Below are positions 11,109 through 24,536 of a DNA stretch of 64,000 nt, piece after piece. The position numbers and the translations under genes were made by a program. The stretch spans positions 682,001 to 746,000 of the forward strand of contig NC_015680.1 in NCBI RefSeq assembly GCF_000215995.1, given 5' to 3'. The notes beneath the pieces are model-generated. The model had not been told where the DNA came from and did no database searches. It saw only the letters and a program-made list of their open reading frames with translations. This stretch comes from Pyrococcus yayanosii CH1 (GTDB lineage Archaea; Methanobacteriota_B; Thermococci; Thermococcales; Thermococcaceae). The stretch's first letter is position 1. Each line of letters starts with the position of its first letter.

Positions 11109-13095
11109 GTTCCAATAAGACTCAAAGAGAATTGAAAGAACTTAGTCGGCGATAGGTATGACATAGTTAAGAAAGTTCCAATAAGACTCAAAGAGAATTG
11201 AAAGCGGGGCCTGATGCGGGCGGGATCCGCCCCGCCGGCCTGTTCCAATAAGACTCAAAGAGAATTGAAAGCAAACAACTGCACCCACGACCGCGCCAGG
11301 AGGGCCGGCTAAGGTTCCAATAAGACTCAAAGAGAATTGAAAGTTCTAATAATCACGAGTACGACGTCTTCGTCGTCATGTTCCAATAAGACTCAAAGAG
11401 AATTGAAAGTCGTTTTCTTCATTATTATCTATGTCATTACACCTATGTTCCAATAAGACTCAAAGAGAATTGAAAGCGGGGCGCGAGCCGGCGGGAAATC
11501 CGCCCCCGCGGGGGTTCCAATAAGACTCAAAGAGAATTGAAAGCTGGATCTCTCTGAATTCTTCTGGATCACTAGTAACCTGTTCCAATAAGACTCAAAG
11601 AGAATTGAAAGGGATTTTCTGGAGTACTTTTGGAGTTCCTGGATCGTGTTCCAATAAGACTCAAAGAGAATTGAAAGCTCTGCCTTCACTTCCACCACCC
11701 CCAAGCCTTCTTCGTTCCAATAAGACTCAAAGAGAATTGAAAGGATGACGGCAACAACCTCGCCCGCCCTGTTCTTCGGGTTCCAATAAGACTCAAAGAG
11801 AATTGAAAGTGCTGGAATGTGGGGCGTCGGCGGTAGGATCAAGTGGGTTCCAATAAGACTCAAAGAGAATTGAAAGTTGACGAGATCATCGACGGTCTCG
11901 AGAAGGGGGAGGCTGTTCCAATAAGACTCAAAGAGAATTGAAAGCGGAACCAGGCGAGGAGGGCCTGCTTCTTTGGGCTCCACGCCGTTCCAATAAGACT
12001 CAAAGAGAATTGAAAGGGGGAGGCGAGAAGGCTAGGTTTCTTCATAGCATCAGGTTCCAATAAGACTCAAAGAGAATTGAAAGCCGCCCTCCCTCGTCCT
12101 CATCTCAACCGCCCCACTGCGTTCCAATAAGACTCAAAGAGAATTGAAAGTTGATAATCTCTGGATCCTCGAAGCCGGCCTTGAGCAGTTCCAATAAGAC
12201 TCAAAGAGAATTGAAAGACTCTCTCCCAAAGTAACAACTGCCAGCGCTGGTCTCTGTTCCAATAAGACTCAAAGAGAATTGAAAGCATTCAAGGGAATTG
12301 GATTTACTGGCTTGTAGCGAAGTTCCAATAAGACTCAAAGAGAATTGAAAGCTGTAAAGAAAGTTGACAGTTTCTTGACCTCTTCCCATGTTCCAATAAG
12401 ACTCAAAGAGAATTGAAAGCCTTTTTAGCAGTTCATCTGCGAGCCGAAACAGAGCCTGTTCCAATAAGACTCAAAGAGAATTGAAAGGGCAAAAAAGCTT
12501 GGAGAAGCTAGGCCTTTACGGACTGGTTCCAATAAGACTCAAAGAGAATTGAAAGTATGGATACTGTAGGTACACTCGATACGTCAGCGCAAGTTCCAAT
12601 AAGACTCAAAGAGAATTGAAAGGGAGCCCCAGAGGAGTGTTCCGGGCCCGGGGGAGTCCCCGTTCCAATAAGACTCAAAGAGAATTGAAAGCGTCGTCTT
12701 CGTAGATGTCTATTATCTCTACCTCCGTTCCAATAAGACTCAAAGAGAATTGAAAGTCACTTGTTCTAACTGCTGGTAAAGCTCTTTTAGTTGCGTTCCA
12801 ATAAGACTCAAAGAGAATTGAAAGTTTCGGGGGTTCGGGGCCTGAGCCGGCGGGGAATCCGGTTCCAATAAGACTCAAAGAGAATTGAAAGTGATGTAGT
12901 TAGCGAGATCCTCCTGGAGTCCATTCCTAGGGTTCCAATAAGACTCAAAGAGAATTGAAAGGACCCCGGAATGCCTACGAATTCAGTTAACAACTCAAGT
13001 TCCAATAAGACTCAAAGAGAATTGAAAGGGAAAGGCTTCCACGTTGAGTTGCCCCGCTCGTCCCTGTTCCAATAAGACTCTAAGAGAATTGAAAG
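11109..13095 (+). CRISPR. CRISPR array, 30 repeats and 29 spacers
   Basis: Thirty 30-bp repeats begin GTTCCAATAAGACTC and end AAAGAGAATTGAAAG. As read by eye all are identical except the last (13066-13095), which has TAAGAG in place of AAAGAG: the usual decayed repeat at the leader-distal end. Spacers are 35-42 bp, mostly 36-38. Repeat starts are 11109, 11175, 11242, 11314, 11380, 11447, 11514, 11582, 11648, 11714, 11780, 11847, 11915, 11987, 12054, 12121, 12188, 12256, 12322, 12390, 12458, 12526, 12593, 12662, 12727, 12795, 12862, 12932, 12999 and 13066. The repeat closely resembles the P. furiosus repeat, so a Cas6 encoded elsewhere would be expected to process it. Confidence 0.99.
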
Positions 13096-13713
13096 TTTAC
13101 CCTAATTGCGGCCGTGATCATTGCAATCCTCTGATTGTTTTTGTTATTATTTTTGTTACTCGTTGGTTTGGTTGGGTTATTATTTTGGCTATCCGTCTGA
13201 TCGATCATGGTAATTACGAGTTCTACCCGCGGTGCTAAGTGGGAGAAAAGCATTCGTACGAACGCACGATACCCATGCACTTCACCCTTGAAGGGCGGGT
13301 GTGGAAAATCGTGTCGAGAGTTAGGACGCGGGCCGGCAAAATTTTCAAGACCCGCATGCTGACTAATGTCATAACAAACCAGCCTAGGAATTACTACTTG
13401 GATTCGTTAACCGGGGAGTGTTAAGATTTCACCCTCCCTCACGATTTTTTTCTTGAATTTTTCTAGTGCGCGCAAAATAAGAAAATAAAAAAATATACTG
13501 CGTTCCACTTCAACACTTTGCGTAAAAAACTAACGCAAACTATCAGAGCAATACTAAAATGGAAAAGAAAAAGAAAAAAATATGTAGCTACGTCGAGAAC
13601 AAGTAATTTTTTGAAAACAGACGAAGATAAGTTAAAAGTGGACGTTAAGTTTTTACTTTTTCTTTGAAAGCTGTGTCATTTACGGTGAGGCGGAGTTCAG
13701 TGTTCGGAGGATT
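13096..13713. other. Intergenic region after the array, gene remnants and AT-rich tract
   Basis: 618 bp between the last repeat and the end of the CARF-PIN gene. Just after the repeat, one frame encodes a hydrophobic stretch (FTLIAAVIIAIL then a stop), and a second frame reads hydrophobic residues to about 13200, which looks like a broken membrane segment. A 61-codon frame at 13239-13424 is listed separately. From 13440 on the sequence is strongly AT-rich: a T-rich run (CGATTTTTTTCTTG) at 13443-13456 could end array transcripts, and an A-rich run at 13562-13580 is T-rich on the minus strand and could end the CARF operon. Confidence 0.5.
13239..13424 (+). CDS. Possible small basic protein or gene remnant
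   Basis: 61 codons starting at GTG 13239, with GGTG at 13231-13234 as a possible ribosome binding site; ATG 13275 is another start. The product is basic (GRVWKIVSRVRTRAGKIFKTR) with a tyrosine-rich end and has no family I recognise. The overlapping +1 frame also has a gene-like start from 13208 (MVITSSTRGAKWEKS). That suggests a decayed or frameshifted gene rather than an intact one. It sits between the array's distal end and the cas effector genes, where fragments of mobile elements often accumulate. Confidence 0.3.
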   Translation: MGEKHSYERTIPMHFTLEGRVWKIVSRVRTRAGKIFKTRMLTNVITNQPRNYYLDSLTGEC

Positions 13714-15198
13714 TCAATGGCTTTTTTTTGTCTCTGGTTTAAGTGAGACTTTAACCTTGTCCCACTCCCAGGGATTCTTGCCTCTCCACACTGCCTTAAC
13801 TTCTCCAATTCCGGAAACGTTTACTTTTCCAAAAACAATGGCTGAGGCGAATATAAAGTCTCTGACGTTCTCCCACGTTACATATTCCTTTATTTCTCCA
13901 AATCCCACATAGATGGGCTCAATATTTCTGAGGTGTTTCAGGTTTGCAAAGAAGTTCTTGTCTGAAGTGAAGACTATCAATTCGCCTTCGTTTTTCCTTA
14001 AAAATTCTACAAAGCTCTCAAGGATAACATCATCGCCTGTACCTTCTCTTGTTGGTTCGATGAGAATGGCGTTCCTTTCGTTGAGGAGCTTGAGTTGTAG
14101 TTGTCCGAGTTTGAAGAGCCTGTCCTTGGGTGATGGCTGGTTCCAGTAATCGCTATCAAGAACGTACTCGTCGAAAAATCTGCCATCCCTTAGAATTTTC
14201 GCTTTTTCTTTGGTTAATTCGGTTTCAACGATTCTTGAAATGGCAAGGTTAAGGGAGTACGCTTTGTCTTTCTGCCTGTCGAGGAACTCGAGAAACCTTC
14301 GTGGAATACCGAAAATTAGGGAATTTGTGTCAAATGTTATGTACCTAGTTTCCTTTTCCTTGATTTTGTTCAAAAGCCAGCGGTATAGTTCTTCTTCATT
14401 CATCCACTTCTCACCGTCAAGTGTTGCCTTGAGCTCTCTGATTCCAGAAGCGTTCAGGACACTGCTGAATAATCCATAGTCGCCAACGTAGCTTGGCAGG
14501 CTTAAGTTTTTAACTACTGAAACTTTTGCGAGATTTTCATTTTCTCTGAGCGAGATTGTGGCAATATCTTTTCCAGAAACTTTAATCTTGAGTAGTTCTC
14601 TGCCGAGTAGAAACTCCTGGTTGATTACAGCCATAAGTTCTTCTCTCGTTATCTTTATCTCCTCTTTTTCTCCTTCAAGCCTTAAGGGTTCTTTTGTTCT
14701 TTCTTTTCCGCTCAGCTCGCTCTTCATTTCCAATAGCTCTTGGATAGAGAAGGGGATTAGGTAGAGGGGGAGGTTTATGTAGCTTAAGTCTCTCAGGTGG
14801 AGGTAGTAAATCTTATCAGCTTTAAACTTTCCGCCTTCAACGCCTTCGATTCCTGCGTACATTGAAAATGCGCTCATGAACTTTCTTCCTGGCGTCATGT
14901 CTATTGCGATTTCGTTGCCCTCGAGCTTTTCTCTCTTTATTATTTCTGCCAGTGTCTTTGTGAATGTTCTAAAATCTTCTTCGTCAACCTTGTGAGTGTC
15001 GTCAATCGCTATTGTTCTTCCATAAGCCTTTGCAAGCGCTTCAATGTAACTCTTAATTTTTTCCATGTTTCTTTTCACTTTGTCGTTCCAGAGGAGGTAA
15101 ATCTTGTCTGGGTAGTAGGAGTCTCTGGCGATTGCCATCCAGAGAGAGTTGAATACGGCAAAGGGAGATGTACCAACAGTGGTAATCCATACTCTCAT
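13714..15198 (-). CDS. CARF-PIN fusion, putative cyclic-oligoadenylate-activated ribonuclease
   Basis: 494 residues. The N-terminal part is a CARF-type Rossmann domain: MRVWITTVGTSPFAVF (1-16) with a nucleotide-binding loop, and DMTPGRKFMSAF (100-111) as the second ligand-contact motif. A linker of about 120 residues follows. The C-terminal half is a PIN nuclease: FDTNSLIFG (Asp290), IVETEL (Glu325 and Glu327), GTGDDVI (Asp389/Asp390) and FTSDKNF (Asp413), a complete metal-binding acidic set. The start ATG overlaps the stop of the upstream csx gene by 4 bp, so the two are one operon, pointing away from the divergent cmr operon. By analogy with CARF-HEPN proteins it should cleave RNA when Cas10-made cyclic oligoadenylate binds. 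That is inference; I know of no well-studied CARF-PIN enzyme. Confidence 0.8.
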   Translation of the reverse strand: MRVWITTVGTSPFAVFNSLWMAIARDSYYPDKIYLLWNDKVKRNMEKIKSYIEALAKAYGRTIAIDDTHKVDEEDFRTFTKTLAEIIKREKLEGNEIAIDMTPGRKFMSAFSMYAGIEGVEGGKFKADKIYYLHLRDLSYINLPLYLIPFSIQELLEMKSELSGKERTKEPLRLEGEKEEIKITREELMAVINQEFLLGRELLKIKVSGKDIATISLRENENLAKVSVVKNLSLPSYVGDYGLFSSVLNASGIRELKATLDGEKWMNEEELYRWLLNKIKEKETRYITFDTNSLIFGIPRRFLEFLDRQKDKAYSLNLAISRIVETELTKEKAKILRDGRFFDEYVLDSDYWNQPSPKDRLFKLGQLQLKLLNERNAILIEPTREGTGDDVILESFVEFLRKNEGELIVFTSDKNFFANLKHLRNIEPIYVGFGEIKEYVTWENVRDFIFASAIVFGKVNVSGIGEVKAVWRGKNPWEWDKVKVSLKPETKKSH

Positions 15199-16388
15199 GG
15201 CAAAGCCTCCTTTAGTAATTTGAGTATTTCATGAGATCTTTTCTCAATAACATTCACTTTGGGTCGGTCTTTTTTCTCCTTCATCCCAGCGTGGGCTATC
15301 GCATTCCTGATTTCGTAAACTTTGAGCCAAACCTTGGCAAGTTTAGCTATTTTTTCATTCTTTTCAAGCTTCTCTACCCATTCCGTTTTTTCAATTCCAT
15401 TCGTGTTCCCTCTAATCTTCGCTGAGAACCAGCCTATTGTTTTTTCTGCTTTAATTCTAACATCTTTGCTCAGCCACTTCTTTTCACCAGCTAAGAAAAT
15501 CACAGCGTTGATAATCCATTCCCTCATAAGTTCTAGGGCATTTGCCGTCATGCCTTTTTCAAGTAGGTATTCAATTATTCCGAGTTGCTTTTCTAAACTT
15601 TCCTTGCCAAATTCCTTGCACCCGAATTCAGTTAGGCGTTCAATCTCGTTAAGCGTGTACCTTATCGGTGGAAGGAATTCAATTGCCTCAGCTTTGAACT
15701 CTTCATAACCTTTCTTGGCTTTTGCTGATAGTTCCATGAATTCTGGAATTTGATTTAGCTGGAGGTTCTTGAGTAGGATAAGGATTAGATCAGCATAGCC
15801 CGACAAAGTTTTTGGTTTCTTTGGAGCGTTGGTTTTGTAAAACCTTGCGTTCATGTTTTTGATTGAATTGTAAATGCCCTCCCCTCTGCCATACTTTTTC
15901 AGATCTCTCACTCCATAGAGCCAATCAGCTAAGTCGAGGATTCCACTGAGGTCAAAGATTGGTGCACCTTTTTCAGTCTTTGCCTCAAAGGCTCCATAGT
16001 AGATTCCCACAATCTTGACGTTTTTGACCTCTTGGAGGTAAAGTATGATGGGGAATGACATGAAGGGTATGTGTCTGAAGGCGTGAGTTATGTCGAGAAT
16101 TATTTCATCATTGTAATCAACGCTGTCAACGATTTTCTCAAACAGGCTCCAGATGTCTTCTTGAGTTTTTGGCGTTTCTATCTCAACGAATTGAACGTTT
16201 TCTATTCTCTCTCTTAGCTTTTCCCCATGCTTTTTGTAAGCTTCTTTTGTCGCGAAGATTATGACCTCGGAGGGCTGAAATATTTTTGTCAATGCTTCTT
16301 GAATGTATTCTGTCCTCACAGTTTTATCCTCATAGAAATATATAGTTTCTTTGTATTCGCTAGATCCGATAAAGCTCAACAACTTCAC
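15195..16388 (-). CDS. CARF-HEPN ribonuclease of the Csx1/Csx2 (TIGR02221-like) family
   Basis: 397 residues. The N-terminal CARF domain starts MKLLSFIGSSEYKET and carries LDITHAFRHIPFM (98-110), the signature of the TIGR02221/TM1812-type branch. The C-terminal helical part is HEPN, with the RNase motif R-x4-H in EIRNAIAHAG (Arg361, His366). Known relatives are RNases activated by cyclic tetra- or hexa-adenylate made by Cas10, and some also degrade the ligand in the CARF pocket. GTG start at 16388, preceded by GGTGGTGT. It is the first gene of a two-gene minus-strand operon with CARF-PIN, divergent from cmr. No cas6-like sequence is present. Confidence 0.85.
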   Translation of the reverse strand: MKLLSFIGSSEYKETIYFYEDKTVRTEYIQEALTKIFQPSEVIIFATKEAYKKHGEKLRERIENVQFVEIETPKTQEDIWSLFEKIVDSVDYNDEIILDITHAFRHIPFMSFPIILYLQEVKNVKIVGIYYGAFEAKTEKGAPIFDLSGILDLADWLYGVRDLKKYGRGEGIYNSIKNMNARFYKTNAPKKPKTLSGYADLILILLKNLQLNQIPEFMELSAKAKKGYEEFKAEAIEFLPPIRYTLNEIERLTEFGCKEFGKESLEKQLGIIEYLLEKGMTANALELMREWIINAVIFLAGEKKWLSKDVRIKAEKTIGWFSAKIRGNTNGIEKTEWVEKLEKNEKIAKLAKVWLKVYEIRNAIAHAGMKEKKDRPKVNVIEKRSHEILKLLKEALP

Positions 16389-16753: not shown

Positions 16754-17833
16754 ATGTATGAGGCAACATTTGAGCTTGAAGCAATAACGCCTGTTTTCAT
16801 GAGGGGAGCTTATCAAAGCAAAGCCGAATTCAGGGCACCATCAATCAAAGGTGTGATGAGGTGGTGGTTCAGGGCTCTGGCTGGAAACTACTTTGGAAAC
16901 GACATTGCCGGGCTTAGGGAGGCTGAAGGGAGAATCTTCGGCTCTGCAGGTAGTGGAGGGGCAAGGAGGAGCAGAGTTGGGGTAGTTGTGGAATCCCTCT
17001 CGAAGCCCAAAAATATCTTTTTCAAGCCCCCCAAGGTCTTTGACAGGGAGTCGTGGGTGAGCGACCTTCCGTATCTTTTTTTCTCCATAAAAATGACAGC
17101 TAAGAGCATACGGAATTCCCTGTTCTACCCGCCCGGTTCAGTCTTTAGGGTCTCCATCTCCTCACGAGATCGTTCCTCTTATGTGGCCTCCCTAGCTTCC
17201 CTATGGGCGGCAGTTGTCCTCGGGGGTTTTGGCTTTCGCTCAAGGAGAGGTGCGGGAAGTCTCTGGTTCAAGGGCAGGGTGAAGGAGTTCGAGAATATCG
17301 GACTTCCAACCATCATTGACTCGCCAAAAGCTCTCAGAAATGGAATAAAACGAGCCATAACTCTCATAGGCTCAGCTTTCGGAAAGGAACAGGAGGTAAT
17401 ACTTAGTCCTCTCAGCTATCCTGTTCTCAATGAAAAAACAAGTTATGTTGCCCTGATTGAGTTTGATGATCCGAAAAATGCCCTAAGGCAGTTTCAAAGG
17501 GTTTACTCGGGCTTCAGAAGAAAGCCCGGGAACAAGATTCACAGGATTGTCTTCGGTCTTCCGATCGTCAAAGGCAACCTTGGAAGGATTAGGTGGGCCG
17601 CCAAGAAGTCGAGGAGGGCATCTCCCATGATGGTCAGCGTTAAGCCAATCGAAACCGGATATGCATTAGTGATAGTGAAGTTCCGAACGGAGCCATTCTA
17701 CATGGTCACCAGGCGGGAGGAAAGGAACACTCAAGAAATTATAAACAGTGTTGTGGACTGGAGCCTCTTGAAAGAGTTTGATGAGAAATTTCAGGAGAAA
17801 CCCGCTTACGGCTCACTGGAGGTGTTCCAATGA
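16754..17833 (+). CDS. cmr1: Type III-B CRISPR RAMP protein Cmr1
   Basis: 359-residue Cas7-like RAMP protein, at the crRNA 3' end of the Cmr effector complex in characterised systems. It begins MYEATFELEAITPVFMRG and has the family signature PSIKGVMRWWFRALAG (about 30-45) and glycine-rich loops (FGSAGSGG; VVLGGFGFRSRRGAGSL). GAGGTG lies a few bases before ATG 16754. The stop overlaps the cmr2 start by 4 bp (ATGA), indicating translational coupling. Confidence 0.93.
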   Translation: MYEATFELEAITPVFMRGAYQSKAEFRAPSIKGVMRWWFRALAGNYFGNDIAGLREAEGRIFGSAGSGGARRSRVGVVVESLSKPKNIFFKPPKVFDRESWVSDLPYLFFSIKMTAKSIRNSLFYPPGSVFRVSISSRDRSSYVASLASLWAAVVLGGFGFRSRRGAGSLWFKGRVKEFENIGLPTIIDSPKALRNGIKRAITLIGSAFGKEQEVILSPLSYPVLNEKTSYVALIEFDDPKNALRQFQRVYSGFRRKPGNKIHRIVFGLPIVKGNLGRIRWAAKKSRRASPMMVSVKPIETGYALVIVKFRTEPFYMVTRREERNTQEIINSVVDWSLLKEFDEKFQEKPAYGSLEVFQ

Positions 17834-20712
17834 GGTCCGAGTACCTTAATGCTCTTCTTGAGGCATATCTTGAAATCAACCCCTCAGAGATACTCTCCGG
17901 ACAAGTGCCGGATGAATGGAAAGCTCTCTCAAGCTTTCCCCTTGAGGGTGAGCCAACGAAGGTAGTGCTCAAACACCCCATAAGCTCGAAAGAGAAGGAG
18001 TTGACTGAAACCACCCACATCCTTGCCGAAGGAAAAACGGACATAATCAAGAAAATAGTGAGTGACTTTAGTCTTTCAGCTCAAAGCATTGAGGAGTTTG
18101 CCAGGTTCTGGAATGAACTTCCTGAGAAACTCCAGGAATTTTACAGAGGTAGGATTGAGAACCTAAAGAAGGAAGGAAAACTCGATGCCAGCATTGATTC
18201 CGACACCCTTGCCCAAGAGCTTGTTCACTTCCCCGCTGATCCCCTTATGCCAGACCACGACTGGCTGAGCAGGCTCGACATCTATGCAACCATAAAAGCT
18301 GCTGAAAAGACGGGAGCAAAGCTGTATCTTCTCCGCTTTAAAATATCCCCAGTTCAGGGATTCATAGGCAACGCAAGAACGGAAAGAGATCTCTGGGCTG
18401 GAAGCCACATGCTGGGCTACTTGACGTATCAGGCAATCAGCGAAATATGGCATGAATACGGTCCTCAGGCTGTAATATTTCCTCATCTCCGTGGTCAGCC
18501 ATTCTTTGAGTTTGAAATTGGGCTGTTGGAGGACAAGGATGAGCTGGAGATAGCCAACATACCCAATAAGGTGCTTGCCATTATCCCGGTCTGGGAAGGA
18601 GAAAGTCTTGAAGAGCTTAAGGGAAGAATTGAGAGTAGAATAATCCGGGAGCTCAAAGGTATTTTTAATGCAGCATGGGATTTCTATGAGATCAACTTCG
18701 AAAAGAAAAATATCTACGAAAAGACAGTAGAGAAATACTTCACAATTACAATTGAACTGATTCCGTTTGAGGAAGTAAAACCAGTCTTTGGAAAGCTCCT
18801 TAAGGATTATCTAACGACATTAGGGCAAAAAGCCTCCATGAGCACCTATTACTCTGAGCTATTCACGATACTCGACCAGCTGACCGACTTCCGCTCAAGA
18901 GAATTTGAAAAAGTAAAGCAACCGGAAGGGTTCAAGTGCATCCTCTGCGGAGAACACGTTGCAATAGGCGGAGATGTTCTCGAGTATTCCGAACTTAGGA
19001 TGAAATGGGAAGATTTGAGAAAAAATCTGAATTCAAGAGGCATCTATGATATTAAATCCGGGGAACGCCTTTGTCCGCTTTGTCTGGCAAAGCGCTTCTA
19101 TCCAAGATTTTATGCCTTGTGGAAGGCAGAAGATGTAAAAAGCGCTTGCGACGAGCAGTTGGGGAGAAAAGCCAAAGAATACTTTGAAGATAAAATTTTG
19201 AACGTCAAGAGCTTTGAATCCGTGAGTGAGGTTGCTATGAAAAAACTTACGAGGAAAGCCGTTAAGCTGTGGAGGGAAAGCAAGCTTTATGTAAGTGACG
19301 GCTCTTTAAAACGTCCCATCACATGGTATGATATCTTCATAGATCTTCTTGAACCCACCCGTTCCGAATACGGCGGAGCCGTTTTAAAACCTGAAGGGAC
19401 GTCTGCAGATTCCTTCCTAGAAACCCTTATGAAGCTTAGAACCGCAGTTCTCCCTCTATTCAAGAAACTTTCGCCAAACATCGAAGTTCTCTACAAAGAA
19501 AACTTGAGAACCTTGGATTCCCTAGCAAAGATTTACGGGCTGAACTCCAATGAGCTGATGGAGAGGGGCATAGATGACGAGGTAAGAACAAATATCCTAG
19601 AGGCAATCCGGAATCTTGAAGAGTCAATTGGTGAACCTCCGAAATATTATGCACTCCTAAAGATGGATGGCGATAATATGGGCAAGGTTATCAGCGGGAC
19701 TAAAGCTGTAAAACCGCTAAAGGAATACTCACTCACCGGAGACGCTCCGGATGTTCACAGACCAATAACTCCAACCGCCCACATAGCCATAACCCGCTCA
19801 CTCTCAAAGTTTGCCGTTGAGAAAGTTCCCAAGCTATCTAAGGAACATCATGCTGAGCTTATTTATGCAGGAGGAGATGATGTTTTTGCCCTCGTACCAA
19901 CTGACCAAGCCATTCCGCTTGCATACGAGCTTCAAAAAGAATTCAGAAAAGACTGGGAAGGATTTGATTACCTCCAGGGAAGCACGAGAAGCATGAGTGC
20001 CGGAATCTTGGCAATTTATTACAAGGAGCCTCTTTACAGTGCTATTAGGAAGGTCAATGAGCTTGAGCACTTGGCAAAGGAGAGCGGAAGAAATGCCTTG
20101 GCAATAGGCTACCTCACACACAGCGGAAACTACTATGTGGTAATCGTGAACTGGAGGATTTTCGGTAATGATGTAGTTTATGACCTATTGAGGTCATTTA
20201 CTAATGAAAGAGAAAACATGAAGGAAAAGATAAGCACTCGCTTCCTTTATGAGATTCTCAACGGTGTTGATAAATGGCCCAATGAACCCGATGCCATCAT
20301 TCAGCTTCTCCGCTATGAGCTAATGAGACATTCAAACCTTTCGGAGGAAATCATCAGGAAAAAACTTGCTGAAATCCTGTGGATTGCAAGGAACGTTAGG
20401 ATCAAGTTGAGCAGAGAAGATTTAAGCTCGTTGAAAATTGAAAATGCCGATGCAAAAACGATAAGCTCTGCTATCGAGGAAGTAATAGTTGATGATCCAG
20501 AAAAGGAAGAACCATCAGATACCCCTGACAGCATAATCCAAGACACTGACAAGCTGGAGAATCTGTGGTTTAATGCCATCACAAGAAAACTCGAGAAAAA
20601 GGGAATTTCCAAGGATTCCGCAAGAAGAATAAGTGCCCTTGTGCTTAAGAGGCAGGTTAAAGGAGCGGCAATTCTTATCAAAATACTTCGTGAAATGGGG
20701 GTGGGAGCTTGA
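17830..20712 (+). CDS. cmr2: Cas10 subunit Cmr2, GGDD cyclase, no clear HD motif
   Basis: 960 residues, longer than P. furiosus Cmr2 (about 870). It is the large subunit of the Cmr complex and, in active systems, makes cyclic oligoadenylate on target RNA binding. Palm motifs are KMDGDNMGKV (611-620) and YAGGDDVFAL with GGDD at 681-684. A zinc-binding set is CILC (370-373) and CPLC (415-418). The N-terminal 200 residues contain ADPLMPDHDWLSRLD, the usual Cmr2 segment, but not the HDPPDKA-like motif of HD-nuclease-bearing Cas10 proteins, so single-strand DNase activity is doubtful. The C-terminus is helical. It overlaps cmr1 and abuts cmr3. Confidence 0.95.
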   Translation: MRSEYLNALLEAYLEINPSEILSGQVPDEWKALSSFPLEGEPTKVVLKHPISSKEKELTETTHILAEGKTDIIKKIVSDFSLSAQSIEEFARFWNELPEKLQEFYRGRIENLKKEGKLDASIDSDTLAQELVHFPADPLMPDHDWLSRLDIYATIKAAEKTGAKLYLLRFKISPVQGFIGNARTERDLWAGSHMLGYLTYQAISEIWHEYGPQAVIFPHLRGQPFFEFEIGLLEDKDELEIANIPNKVLAIIPVWEGESLEELKGRIESRIIRELKGIFNAAWDFYEINFEKKNIYEKTVEKYFTITIELIPFEEVKPVFGKLLKDYLTTLGQKASMSTYYSELFTILDQLTDFRSREFEKVKQPEGFKCILCGEHVAIGGDVLEYSELRMKWEDLRKNLNSRGIYDIKSGERLCPLCLAKRFYPRFYALWKAEDVKSACDEQLGRKAKEYFEDKILNVKSFESVSEVAMKKLTRKAVKLWRESKLYVSDGSLKRPITWYDIFIDLLEPTRSEYGGAVLKPEGTSADSFLETLMKLRTAVLPLFKKLSPNIEVLYKENLRTLDSLAKIYGLNSNELMERGIDDEVRTNILEAIRNLEESIGEPPKYYALLKMDGDNMGKVISGTKAVKPLKEYSLTGDAPDVHRPITPTAHIAITRSLSKFAVEKVPKLSKEHHAELIYAGGDDVFALVPTDQAIPLAYELQKEFRKDWEGFDYLQGSTRSMSAGILAIYYKEPLYSAIRKVNELEHLAKESGRNALAIGYLTHSGNYYVVIVNWRIFGNDVVYDLLRSFTNERENMKEKISTRFLYEILNGVDKWPNEPDAIIQLLRYELMRHSNLSEEIIRKKLAEILWIARNVRIKLSREDLSSLKIENADAKTISSAIEEVIVDDPEKEEPSDTPDSIIQDTDKLENLWFNAITRKLEKKGISKDSARRISALVLKRQVKGAAILIKILREMGVGA

Positions 20713-20714
20713 TC

Positions 20715-21779
20715 GTGAAAATAACCCCCAACGATGTGTTGTTCTTCAGAGAGAGCAGAGACTTTACCGCTGGAGATAGCCACCTCGCGGAATCTCTCCT
20801 CCCTCTCCCACACACAATTGCCGGTGCATTAATGGCGGTAATGTTCGTCAAGGGACGCTATGACTTACTGAACCTGGAGCTCAAGGAGGGAAAGTTCAGA
20901 AAGCCAGAGAATTGGAAGCCAAATTTTGAAATCATCGGAACATTTTTTATGAAGAAAAATGAGCTCTACTTCCCCGTTCCAAAGGACATCGTGAGTGCGA
21001 AAGCAGACGGAAGGAGCATCATCACCATGGCAAAGCTTAAGGAAGTGCAGATTGGAGGGCAAAGCTTTACAACAGTTTTCGCTGAAGGTGAAAGTCCTCT
21101 CCACTTCTCTCCAGTTAGTGGATTCCTAAGCTTTGAAAAACTCAAGAGCTATCTAAACGGTGAATATTACAGCAAAAATGATCTCTCCGAGGAAATAACC
21201 AAAAACAGCTCACTTTACAAATGGGAAAACAGGGTAGGTATAGGCCTAAACTCCTCAAAAACCACTGTCGAAGGAATGTTCTACAGAACAAGGATGCTCA
21301 GGCTGGAAAAAGACACGGCAATTGGGATAGTTCTTAGCAAGAAAAATCTTGATGAAGTAAAGAAGACGCTCGGTAAGAAGGGTACTCTGAAGCTCGGCGG
21401 AGAGGGAAGATTTGCCCACTATGAGATTATAGATGAAGATCCCTTGGAGGAGCTCGAAGAGATCAGCGTTAAAAAGAATGCCCTATTCAAGCTCTACCTT
21501 GCAACTCCCCTAATCGTAGATGGACAGAGCTGGAACATAGCAGAAGTTCTGCCAGAACACATCAACGCCAAAATTGTTAAGGTCTTCATGGACAGACCAG
21601 AAAAGATAACCGGCTGGGACTTGGTTAAGAGACGTCCCAAAGAGACCCTCTACGCAGTTCCACCAGGCAGTGTTTACATCCTTAAAGCCCAGGAAGATTT
21701 GACGTTAAAACCTTTCTACCGGCTTGGAATGATGGTAGAATTAGGCTATGGACTTGTTTTTGCAGGTAAATACGGCTGA
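20715..21779 (+). CDS. cmr3: Type III-B CRISPR RAMP protein Cmr3
   Basis: About 354 residues; Cas5-like subunit that binds the crRNA 5' tag next to Cmr2. The N-terminus VKITPNDVLFFRESRDFTAGDSHLAES is typical of Cmr3, and the protein ends with a glycine-rich loop (MVELGYGLVFAGKYG). The start is GTG 20715, about eight bases after GGGGGTGGGAG; the in-frame TTG 20709 is too close to that site. It begins two bases after the cmr2 stop. Confidence 0.93.
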   Translation: MKITPNDVLFFRESRDFTAGDSHLAESLLPLPHTIAGALMAVMFVKGRYDLLNLELKEGKFRKPENWKPNFEIIGTFFMKKNELYFPVPKDIVSAKADGRSIITMAKLKEVQIGGQSFTTVFAEGESPLHFSPVSGFLSFEKLKSYLNGEYYSKNDLSEEITKNSSLYKWENRVGIGLNSSKTTVEGMFYRTRMLRLEKDTAIGIVLSKKNLDEVKKTLGKKGTLKLGGEGRFAHYEIIDEDPLEELEEISVKKNALFKLYLATPLIVDGQSWNIAEVLPEHINAKIVKVFMDRPEKITGWDLVKRRPKETLYAVPPGSVYILKAQEDLTLKPFYRLGMMVELGYGLVFAGKYG

Positions 21780-21789
21780 GGTGGTGATA

Positions 21790-21846
21790 ATGGGCATTTA
21801 TCACTTATCTAACCTAAGTTCCCCGGAGGTGGCAAGCTTTGATTAA
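21790..21846 (+). other. Very short frame with a strong ribosome binding site ahead of csx3
   Basis: GAGGTGGTGATA followed directly by ATG 21790 opens an 18-codon frame ([18 protein letters not shown]) ending at 21844-21846. It therefore overlaps the start of csx3 by 8 bp. The initiation signal is as good as for any gene in the operon. It may be a coupling peptide for the TTG-started csx3, or the remains of a gene once between cmr3 and cmr4. No homology is recognised. Confidence 0.35.
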
Positions 21847-22150
21847 GTTCAGAGTTAAGGAGCTTGGAGGCTTCACTGTCGTGCATTTTGAGCTTAACGA
21901 AGAAATTAGACCATCAATTTTAAGGAACCTCAATCCACCAGAGGTTAAAGGCACGAAAGGCGTTGTGTTAAGCGGTAGAGGACCGATATGGCTCTACGGC
22001 TTTCTTGTTCATTTTTACCACTATACCCGCTGGGTGGCCACTTACGACCCCCGCCTCGGCGGGGCCGTAATCATTGAGTCTCACTGGCCCGGAGTTCACC
22101 CAGGTGATGTTGTTAAGCTAAATCTTGAGGAGGTGCTTAGAAATGTTTGA
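21839..22150 (+). CDS. csx3: Csx3 family protein, candidate ring nuclease (Crn3)
   Basis: 103 residues with the Csx3 signature [21 protein letters not shown] (residues 41-61 overall) and [18 protein letters not shown]. Csx3 is a small beta-rich protein that degrades cyclic tetra-adenylate and so switches off type III signalling. The residues that align by motif with the catalytic His, Asp and Arg of A. fulgidus Csx3 appear to be His61, Asp70 and Arg72. The start is TTG 21839, seven bases after GGAGGTGG, the only good option. The gene lies inside the Cmr operon between cmr3 and cmr4 and overlaps cmr4 by 8 bp, so it should be made together with the complex. Confidence 0.88.
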
Positions 22151-23048
22151 AAAAATCCTTATTTTGGGAATATACACCACAACGCCCGTACATGCTGGGA
22201 GCGGAGCTGAGATAAGCGTAATTGACCTGCCAATACAGAGAGAAAGGCACACGGGCTTTCCCGTGATATGGGGACAGAGCCTGAAAGGAGTTCTCAGAAG
22301 CGAGTTTCCAGGAGAAGATAACGACCCAACGAAAACCGTTATTTTTGGTCCCCCAACCGATAGAGCCCACGAACACGCCGGTGCAATAAGTGTCGGAGAT
22401 GCAAAAATCCTGCTCTTCCCGGTAAGGAGTGCCAAAGGAGTCTTTGCCTACATCACATGTCCTCTCATCTTGGAGAGATTCAAGAGAGACATAGAGCTTG
22501 CAGGAGGGAGTGCTGGCTTTAAAATACAGGATGTTGGAGAAGCGGAAGCAATAGTAAGTGAGGATTCTTCACTTGTTGTCAGCACAGGCGGTGAGGATAA
22601 AATCGTCCTTGAAGAGGTCATTCTAAAGGTGAAGAAAGAAGACATCAGTCCAATAGTCAAGGCAATTAACAACATTTTGCCAATTCCAATAGACGCAAAA
22701 AGAATTGCAATAGTGAGCGACGACGTGTTTTCATCTTTCGTGAAAATGGCAACAGAGATTGTGGCAAGGATAAGGATTGACGCCAGGACGGGAACAGTTG
22801 CCGAAGGTGGCCTCTGGTATGAGGAGTTCCTCCCAAGCGACACAGTAATGTACTCCATGATAGCTATTGCAAACCCAAGGGTCAAAAACCCACCAAAAGA
22901 AGTCAACTCCCCTAAGGGAATAGCTCGCAAGCTGATTGAAGTTTTTAACAATAGGTTTCTCCAAATAGGCGGCGATGAGACTGTAGGAAAGGGCTTCGTT
23001 AAGGTCAAGCTGGTAGAGGTGAACGGCAATGAACCTCAGAAGCCTTGA
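22143..23048 (+). CDS. cmr4: Type III-B CRISPR RAMP protein Cmr4
   Basis: 301 residues; Cas7-like backbone subunit that cuts target RNA at 6-nt intervals. Motifs are [20 protein letters not shown] (about 12-31), in which Asp28 probably matches the catalytic Asp of characterised Cmr4, then [20 protein letters not shown], and a C-terminal [15 protein letters not shown]. The start is ATG 22143, after GAGGTG in the end of csx3; six more upstream codons are open but unlikely. It overlaps cmr5 by 20 bp. Confidence 0.94.
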
Positions 23049-23499
23049 GCAGGAGCGAGCAGCCTACGCTTACGAGTGTGTGAAAGAGGTTAAGGAGGAG
23101 GACGAGAAGACCCAAGGAAGATACGCAGCCTACGTCAAGAGCGCCCCAGTCCTCATACTGACAAACGGACTCGGGCAAACGCTGGCGTTCTACTTGGCCA
23201 AGATAGGTAAGAACATTGACGAAGTGGACTACAAGTCAATAGACCCCAAAAGCATCGAGGGAGGTGGTGATAAAAAGGCATACGCCTACCTTTACAAGCA
23301 CATCGCAAGATGGCTTGCCGAGGACATAGGGTGCCACAAAAGTCTAACAAACGGTACCGATCCCCTAAAATACATAATTAGCCAGAACTCAACCAGTCTC
23401 GACGTGATGCTTCTAACCGAAGAAGCACTTTTCCTTCTCAACTGGCTGAAGCGCTTTGCCGATGCAATGCTGAAGAAAGACAAGGATAGCGGTGAGTGA
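23029..23499 (+). CDS. cmr5: Type III-B CRISPR protein Cmr5
   Basis: 156 residues, all-helical small subunit that lines the Cmr filament and contacts target RNA. The family pattern is visible: [16 protein letters not shown] at the start, [27 protein letters not shown] in the middle and [13 protein letters not shown]. It starts 20 bp inside the end of cmr4, with GAGGTG upstream. The end lies at the cmr6 start. Confidence 0.93.
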
Positions 23500-23501
23500 A
23501 C

Positions 23502-24536
23502 ATGGCCAACTTCAGGAGAAGTCATAAGCTCTCAGAAAGGAATCGTCACAACGATAAAAAAGTTAAATTCATAGTTCCCGCAGACACACTCAAAGCACTT
23601 GAAGAGAACCCATGGAGAAATATCAGCAACGTTAGCCTTCTACTGATGAAGTACGTACCCTACATATTTGAGAAAGAGAAAAATAATACATACAAAGCAG
23701 AGCTCAAAGCTCCAGGAATTTCCGATGAAATTATTGAGGCATATTCCCACTACTTAGCCATATACCTCGAAATGCTTGGGGGTATTAACACGAAAGCAGT
23801 GCTACGCCTAAAGTCGAGACTTGTAGTTGGTCTGGGCGACGAAAGCGTTTACGAAACCAGCATAAGGCTACTCAGGAACTATGGGGTTCCTTACATTCCG
23901 GGATCAGCGCTAAAGGGTATTGCTAAGCACTATGCCTTCGAACTCCTTGCGGATGTCCACTGGGAGCTTCTTGTTGAGAAGTTCCAGAATAAATTCAAGA
24001 GGCTGAAGCTAGAGAGGGACGTTTATGGAGCCATAGGCTTTCTCCAGAATGCCTTTGAGAAGGATGATAATAGTTTGAAGAAGCTCAAGGAGCTCAACCT
24101 TGCGATAACACTAAAGGACGGCACAAAAACAACCGTTGAGGAGCTGGTGGATATCTTCGGAACACTTAACAGTGAGGGGAAGGTCGTTTTCTTTGACGCC
24201 CTGCCGTCCCCTGTGAGAGATCCTCCCGCAAATTTAGAACAGCTCAGATCCTCCCTCAAAGATATTTTTAAGGAGGATGTTCTTGAGCTTGACATAATGA
24301 ACCCGCACTATCAACCGTACTATCAGGAAGGAAAACCGCCAGGCGACTGGTACAGCCCGACCCCAATATTTTTCCTCACAGTGAAAAAAGATACTCCATT
24401 CGTCTTTGCAGTTGGACCATCCAAGACCTGCAATGACAGAAAGCTTGTGGAGAAAGCATGGAAACTTCTCAAGGAAGCGTTAAGAGAGCACGGCGTGGGA
24501 GCGAAGACTGCGCTCGGCTATGGGAGATTTGAATAG
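23502..24536 (+). CDS. cmr6: Type III-B CRISPR RAMP protein Cmr6
   Basis: 344 residues, RAMP subunit next to Cmr1 at the crRNA 3' end. Motifs are [19 protein letters not shown] (about 128-146), [18 protein letters not shown] and the C-terminal glycine loop [15 protein letters not shown]. The start is ATG 23502, five bases after GGTGAG, rather than the GTG at 23496. It is the last gene of the operon and is followed by T-rich runs. Confidence 0.93.

Follow-up and report, generated by a model that had tools for sequence, protein, structure and literature searches.

The window analysed here, a stretch of 64,000 nucleotides from Pyrococcus yayanosii CH1 (contig NC_015680.1), contains beside a type III-B CRISPR locus a gene for a CARF-PIN fusion protein, which is a divergent member of an already known effector type. 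This protein is probably an ancillary effector of the type III system, that is, a metal-dependent nuclease--probably an RNase--that is switched by cA4 and that acts beside Csx1. What the analysis shows directly is its architecture, conservation of the acids, the coupling of the genes, an intact cyclase motif, a Csx3 at the locus and a statistical association with cas10. CARF-PIN proteins are among the less-studied CRISPR effectors, and this locus (with its Csx1 operon, its intact cyclase motif and Csx3) provides a clean test case for why two nucleases that probably answer one alarm are both kept.

The CARF-PIN gene and its type III-B surroundings

A CARF-PIN fusion at positions 13714-15198 had been predicted earlier from the sequence, with its strand left unstated. 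The gene lies on the minus strand (the plus-strand frame at these positions is full of stops), and the fusion is confirmed by an end-to-end match to PADLOC model PDLC01973 (CARF_m1--CARF_PIN), which spans residues 1-493 of the protein with an E-value of 2.9e-198; a second PADLOC model, PDLC01068, also matches (E 3.6e-151). Pfam matches to the window protein are weak: PIN_12 has an E-value of 5e-4, and neither it nor any of several CARF models reaches its cut-off. Every NCBIfam match is likewise below cut-off, so that the PIN half is not callable from Pfam or NCBIfam alone. Two findings make its identity as a PIN domain firm: separate genes with homology to this C-terminal half score above the cut-off of Pfam PIN_4, and D290-T291-N292, N353, R360, D389 and D413 are invariant across the fused and the separate forms. 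The original prediction had named, as a result that would speak against it, a homology search showing the C-terminal half to be something else; the homology search made here finds it to be PIN. The gene, the parts of its product and its neighbours are as follows.

13714..15198, minus strand: CARF-PIN gene, 494 aa (open frame; PADLOC CARF_m1--CARF_PIN match)
15206..15210, minus strand: GGAGG ribosome-binding site of the CARF-PIN gene (sequence)
14710..15198, minus strand: CARF domain, about residues 1-163, with motifs G9-T10-S11 and T102-P-G104-R-K106 (PADLOC CARF_m1--CARF models, model secondary structure, residue check)
14347..14709, minus strand: linker and middle domain, residues ~164-284 (from the alignment to separate PIN proteins)
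13891..14346, minus strand: PIN nuclease domain, about residues 285-436 (invariant acids; PIN_4 in homologous separate genes; model pLDDT mostly 75-94)
14329-14331, 14218-14220, 14032-14034 and 13960-13962, minus strand: codons of the PIN acids D290, E327, D389 and D413, respectively
13714..13890, minus strand: conserved C-terminal tail (W442, G457, W471-x-G-K474) and stop codon (invariant columns)
11109..13095, strand not assigned: CRISPR array, 30 repeats of GTTCCAATAAGACTCAAAGAGAATTGAAAG (repeat search)
15195..16388, minus strand: Csx1 (CARF2-HEPN RNase), 397 aa (NCBIfam TIGR02221 above cut-off; PADLOC CARF2--CARF_HEPN, E 8e-103; HEPN motif RNAIAH)
16754..17833, plus strand: Cmr1 (PADLOC)
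17830..20712, plus strand: Cas10/Cmr2 with an intact GGDD cyclase motif (PADLOC, Pfam palm2; YAGGDDVFAL in the translation)
20709..21779, plus strand: Cmr3 (PADLOC)
21839..22150, plus strand: Csx3/Crn3, a cA4-specific ring nuclease family (Pfam PF09620, E 2.5e-33; specificity from PMC7371418)
22125..23048, plus strand: RAMP protein, Cmr4 by position (Pfam RAMPs)
23029..23499, plus strand: Cmr5 (Pfam)
23496..24536, plus strand: RAMP protein, Cmr6 by position (Pfam RAMPs)

The CARF-PIN and Csx1 genes are thus flanked by the CRISPR array on one side and by the divergent Cmr (III-B) operon on the other, and the stop codon of Csx1 overlaps the start of CARF-PIN by ATGA (15195-15198). A scan for promoters and terminators did no better than chance, and residues 1-165 of Cas10/Cmr2 match no HD model. 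Within the fusion protein, the middle region aligns with the N-terminal portion of the separately encoded PIN proteins, and linker residues 165-178 have low confidence in an AlphaFold2 model. Just past the last CRISPR repeat, at 13135-13196 of the window, are two imperfect 29-nt T/G-rich direct repeats, perhaps part of a leader. The same genome (1,716,818 bp) has a second locus, of type III-A, with its own GGDD Cas10 and a CARF9 CARF-HEPN protein.

The PIN active site and solved relatives

Sixteen aligned fused homologues share an invariant D290-T-N, G388-D389 and D413, and when separate PIN proteins are added (17 sequences) D290, T291, N292, N353, R360, D389 and D413 are still invariant. E327 is nearly invariant and sits in a VapC-like pattern, S321-x5-E327-L (S-x5-E-L being a pattern of VapC-type PIN proteins). 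As read from this conservation, the catalytic acids of the PIN domain are D290, E327, D389 and D413. The original prediction, which is supported in part, held that the PIN active site is conserved and should be catalytic, a view with which the four acids kept in fused and separate homologues agree; and the residues that it listed (D290, E325, D389, D390 and D413) all occur at the positions given. The conserved acid, however, is E327 rather than E325, whose counterpart in the group B fusions is Ser, and of the pair listed as Asp389/390 only D389 is invariant, position 390 being T, N or E in relatives.

In the AlphaFold2 model of the window protein (5 sequences, mean pLDDT 77.9, PIN blocks mostly 75-94), D290 comes right after strand 285-289, E327 lies in helix 322-329, D389 opens helix 389-403 and D413 follows strand 406-411; the model would thereby place the acids within the secondary structure as expected of a PIN fold.

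Two homologues depart from the pattern. One (L025 1447-2904, genome G021) is the single exception at E327, where it has Gly; it keeps the three Asp and is possibly inactive. In the other (L027 1501-2427, genome G031), which lies near cas10, the PIN domain has been cleanly deleted in frame, with the CARF domain, the middle domain and the C-terminal tail retained.

A search of PDB sequences with the single window protein returned nothing. By fold, the top PDB match is SiRe_0806 of Sulfolobus islandicus (9JXX/9JXW, with and without cA4), which aligns over the whole chain with an E-value of 1.4e-12, which an alignment-profile search of the PDB also ranks first (E 1.7e-4), and which its depositors labelled 'PIN domain-containing protein'; no paper on the SiRe_0806 structures was found in the literature collection searched. 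It thus seems that a CARF-PIN structure with bound cA4 has already been solved. The earlier statement that no comparable study of CARF-PIN was known is outdated: lists of CARF-PIN fusions go back to 2014, when two CARF families associated with PIN were reported (PMC4012209), and the cA4-bound solved relative was released on 2025-07-23. Lower fold matches include Cdn1, Card1, Cam1, Can1 and ring nucleases, of which the Cdn1, Card1, Cam1 and ring-nuclease matches are presumably owed to the CARF domain, and a PIN-like protein of the SSU processome. The latter subunit, presumably Utp24/Fcf1, is the nearest solved PIN outside CARF proteins; since a fold match says nothing on cleavage specificity, it speaks neither for nor against the suggestion of the original prediction that this effector might cut RNA at a specific site.

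What the PIN domain would cleave separates the reading given above from another, in which the ligand would activate it as a DNase or as a mixed nuclease, in the manner of Can1, Can2 or Card1, and not mainly as an RNase. PIN folds also include DNases, and the PIN-like fold includes flap DNases, a point that counts against an effector acting as an RNase; Cdn1, Card1 and Can1 come up as weaker matches in the whole-chain fold search; and the same operon already has an RNase, Csx1. Yet the Card1 and Cdn1 matches probably stem from the CARF domain, the separate homologues belong to Pfam PIN_4, and those prokaryotic PIN proteins that have been tested are mostly RNases, and the DNase or mixed-nuclease explanation is accordingly regarded as unlikely.

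The activating signal and the tie to cas10

The likely ligand is cA4, because Csx3/Crn3 cleaves cA4 and not cA6 (PMC7371418), because the product of the P. furiosus Cmr complex is mostly cA4, which activates its Csx1 (PMC7192623), and because the window CARF shares residues with Crn1: a residue check shows that it keeps G9-T10-S11 and G104/K106, and Crn1 residues of the same number contact cA4, with Ser11 needed for ring cleavage (PMC10018336). Self-limiting cleavage of cA4 by the window CARF is possible.

As an ancillary effector, the CARF-PIN protein would act as follows. Recognition of target RNA by the Cmr complex would lead Cas10 to make a cyclic oligoadenylate, most likely cA4, which would bind the CARF dimer (as suggested by the motifs and by the cA4-bound solved relative). 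Bound cA4 would then switch on the C-terminal, metal-dependent PIN domain (D290, E327, D389 and D413), most likely an RNase, adding damage beside the co-transcribed Csx1. Finally Csx3, and possibly the CARF domain too, would degrade cA4, and the response would end.

The same CARF residues could be read differently, with the fusion serving chiefly as an off-switch. As a ring nuclease it would clear cA4, and its PIN domain would assist in breaking down the ring or the resulting products. The residues G9-T10-S11 and G104/K106 match those of Crn1, whose cleavage activity requires Ser11; this is consistent with an off-switch, as is the degradation by P. furiosus Csx1 and T. onnurineus Csm6 of their own activator (PMC7192623). 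It is quite improbable, however, given that a dedicated ring nuclease, Csx3, is already at the locus, that the whole PIN active site is conserved along with a large middle domain, and that the window protein falls below the cut-off of every Crn1 model; moreover, self-degradation and effector activity can coexist.

Returning to the effector reading, its distribution can be followed across 94 Thermococcales genomes, 19 of which have the fusion (the PIN-deleted copy being that of G031). Cas10 was counted in 34 of the 94 (36 matches minus two stand-alone mCpol). It is found in 18 of the 19 fusion genomes versus 16 of the 75 without the fusion (Fisher p 3.7e-9, to be taken only as a guide, as related genomes are not independent); the sole fusion genome without a cas10 match, G091, is 80% complete. 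In 16 of the 19 the fusion lies within 20 kb of cas10. Fusions of the window type (G000, G088 and G091) form a small divergent group, about 33% identical to the main group of 15 genomes. In G088 CARF-PIN has kept an open frame with 85% identity and a dN of 0.087 (0.059 in PIN), synonymous sites being saturated, and the Csx1 upstream of it (L039 ~1200-1545) is a broken remnant that contains stops and lacks parts; CARF-PIN appears, in other words, to be constrained even where its Csx1 is lost.

Outside the Thermococcales, an Asgard archaeon, Candidatus Jordarchaeum, has CARF-PIN next to what look like type I cas genes (L097 597-11479), with Cas10 on another contig (L107). Elsewhere a membrane CARF protein (L098 8692-9909; PADLOC CARF8--CARF_TM, E 3e-128) is encoded divergently from a CARF-PIN gene. 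No relatives of CARF-PIN occurred in the viral contigs or phages searched, and predicted viral structures gave no significant match to it.

Counting for the effector reading, then, are the end-to-end CARF_PIN match, the four kept acids, the ATGA shared with the end of Csx1 and the good ribosome-binding site, together with the GGDD Cas10 and Csx3 of the adjacent operon, the co-occurrence with cas10, the match to SiRe_0806 and its cA4, and the constraint seen in G088. Counting against it are the Gly at E327 in L025, the lack of PIN in L027, and the fact that most fusion-free Thermococcales with Cas10 manage without the fusion.

Separate CARF and PIN genes, and known systems

The CARF_PIN model matches nearly every Thermococcales genome twice at one place, first a CARF protein of about 156 aa and then a protein of about 332 aa corresponding to the PIN half, whose gene overlaps or directly follows the CARF gene; the ~332-aa protein scores above the Pfam PIN_4 cut-off and keeps the PIN acids. 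The separate CARF occurs in 80 of the 85 Thermococcales outside the genus of the window genome (g1) and is absent from all nine genomes of g1; it lies within 20 kb of cas10 in one genome only. The pair usually stands behind a DUF2284 gene: in most non-g1 Thermococcales (L079-L093; e.g., L079 8805-10774) a DUF2284 protein, a stand-alone CARF and a PIN_4 protein form a conserved chromosomal cluster with no CRISPR nearby. Haloarchaeal plasmids (L057 7989-9505, L058 8013-9505 and L101-L105) likewise carry overlapping CARF (~155 aa) and PIN (~350 aa) genes, annotated as hypothetical or as 'ring nuclease'; the islands in which they lie also contain BREX, helicase, HNH or ADP-ribosylglycohydrolase genes.

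No Cas10 was found in 53 of the 80 genomes with the separate CARF, which raises the question of what the CARF sensor reads there without a Cas10 ligand. The fused protein, too, could sense a ligand not made by Cas10, such as RNA ends or a different nucleotide; its separate-gene relatives in Cas10-less genomes must do so if they sense anything. Presence of cas10 makes no difference to how often the separate pair occurs (cas10 in 27 of 80 genomes with the separate CARF versus 7 of 14 without, p 0.37), and the CARF-containing RtcR controls an RNA repair operon on damaged tRNA (PMC7790460). The fused form, however, is strongly tied and physically close to cas10, its CARF has GTS whereas the separate CARFs of Thermococcales have GRS or GRT, and the solved relative SiRe_0806 binds cA4, all of which makes a ligand from another source very improbable for the fusion. 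Another cyclase was considered as feeding the pair in general and was rejected, stand-alone mCpol occurring in only 2 of the 94 genomes. These two proteins (137-147 aa; G024:C1:888432 and G062:C109:38165) come from genomes that yielded no true Cas10.

All fusions group in a single clade of the PIN tree (100/98), distinct from both kinds of pair; the CARF and PIN trees place the Jordarchaeum protein differently, and the rooting is uncertain. The fusion may be--a tentative proposal, rated at a little under even--the CRISPR-adopted form of a CRISPR-independent CARF and PIN module, in which a separate sensor and nuclease would respond to a nucleotide signal in a housekeeping or defence role. We infer that one fusion event brought the module under type III control, with fission also possible given the uncertain root. 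To our knowledge, the two-gene CARF and PIN module has not been described as a system, and as a CRISPR-independent pair it is a more interesting lead than the fusion itself. Compared with the fusion, the pair (PADLOC CARF_m1--CARF plus an unnamed PIN_4 protein) is homologous, with a gene order equal to the fusion's domain order and with conserved PIN acids, but it consists of two proteins and has no cas10 link.

Among known systems, the window protein resembles the CARF_m1 CARF-PIN family (PDLC01973 and PDLC01068) in its full-length match, domain order and type III neighbourhood, and differs in belonging to a divergent group and in sharing one operon with Csx1. SiRe_0806 likewise joins CARF to PIN, and the GD and TAD motifs can be made out when the two are aligned by profile, but it is shorter (429 aa) and 18% identical, with a whole-chain TM-score of 0.40-0.47, so that the domain arrangement may differ, which counts against the effector reading. 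A VapC-type toxin of a toxin-antitoxin pair was rejected as an identity, the protein having 494 aa with a CARF domain and an operon partner that is Csx1 and not an antitoxin. Crn1 (Sso2081 and Sis0455) is alike in its CARF fold and its G-T-S and G-R-K residues, but is a single CARF without an effector, whereas the window protein has 494 aa and an effector and does not match NF040581, and identity with Crn1 was rejected on these grounds. Identity with Csx1/Csm6 was rejected as well, since no HEPN model (R-x4-6-H) matches the C-terminal half, which is PIN. Csx1 and Csm6 are alike in having a CARF sensor, a type III locus and probably the same ligand; their effector, however, is HEPN, whereas that of the window protein is a PIN domain predicted to be metal-dependent.
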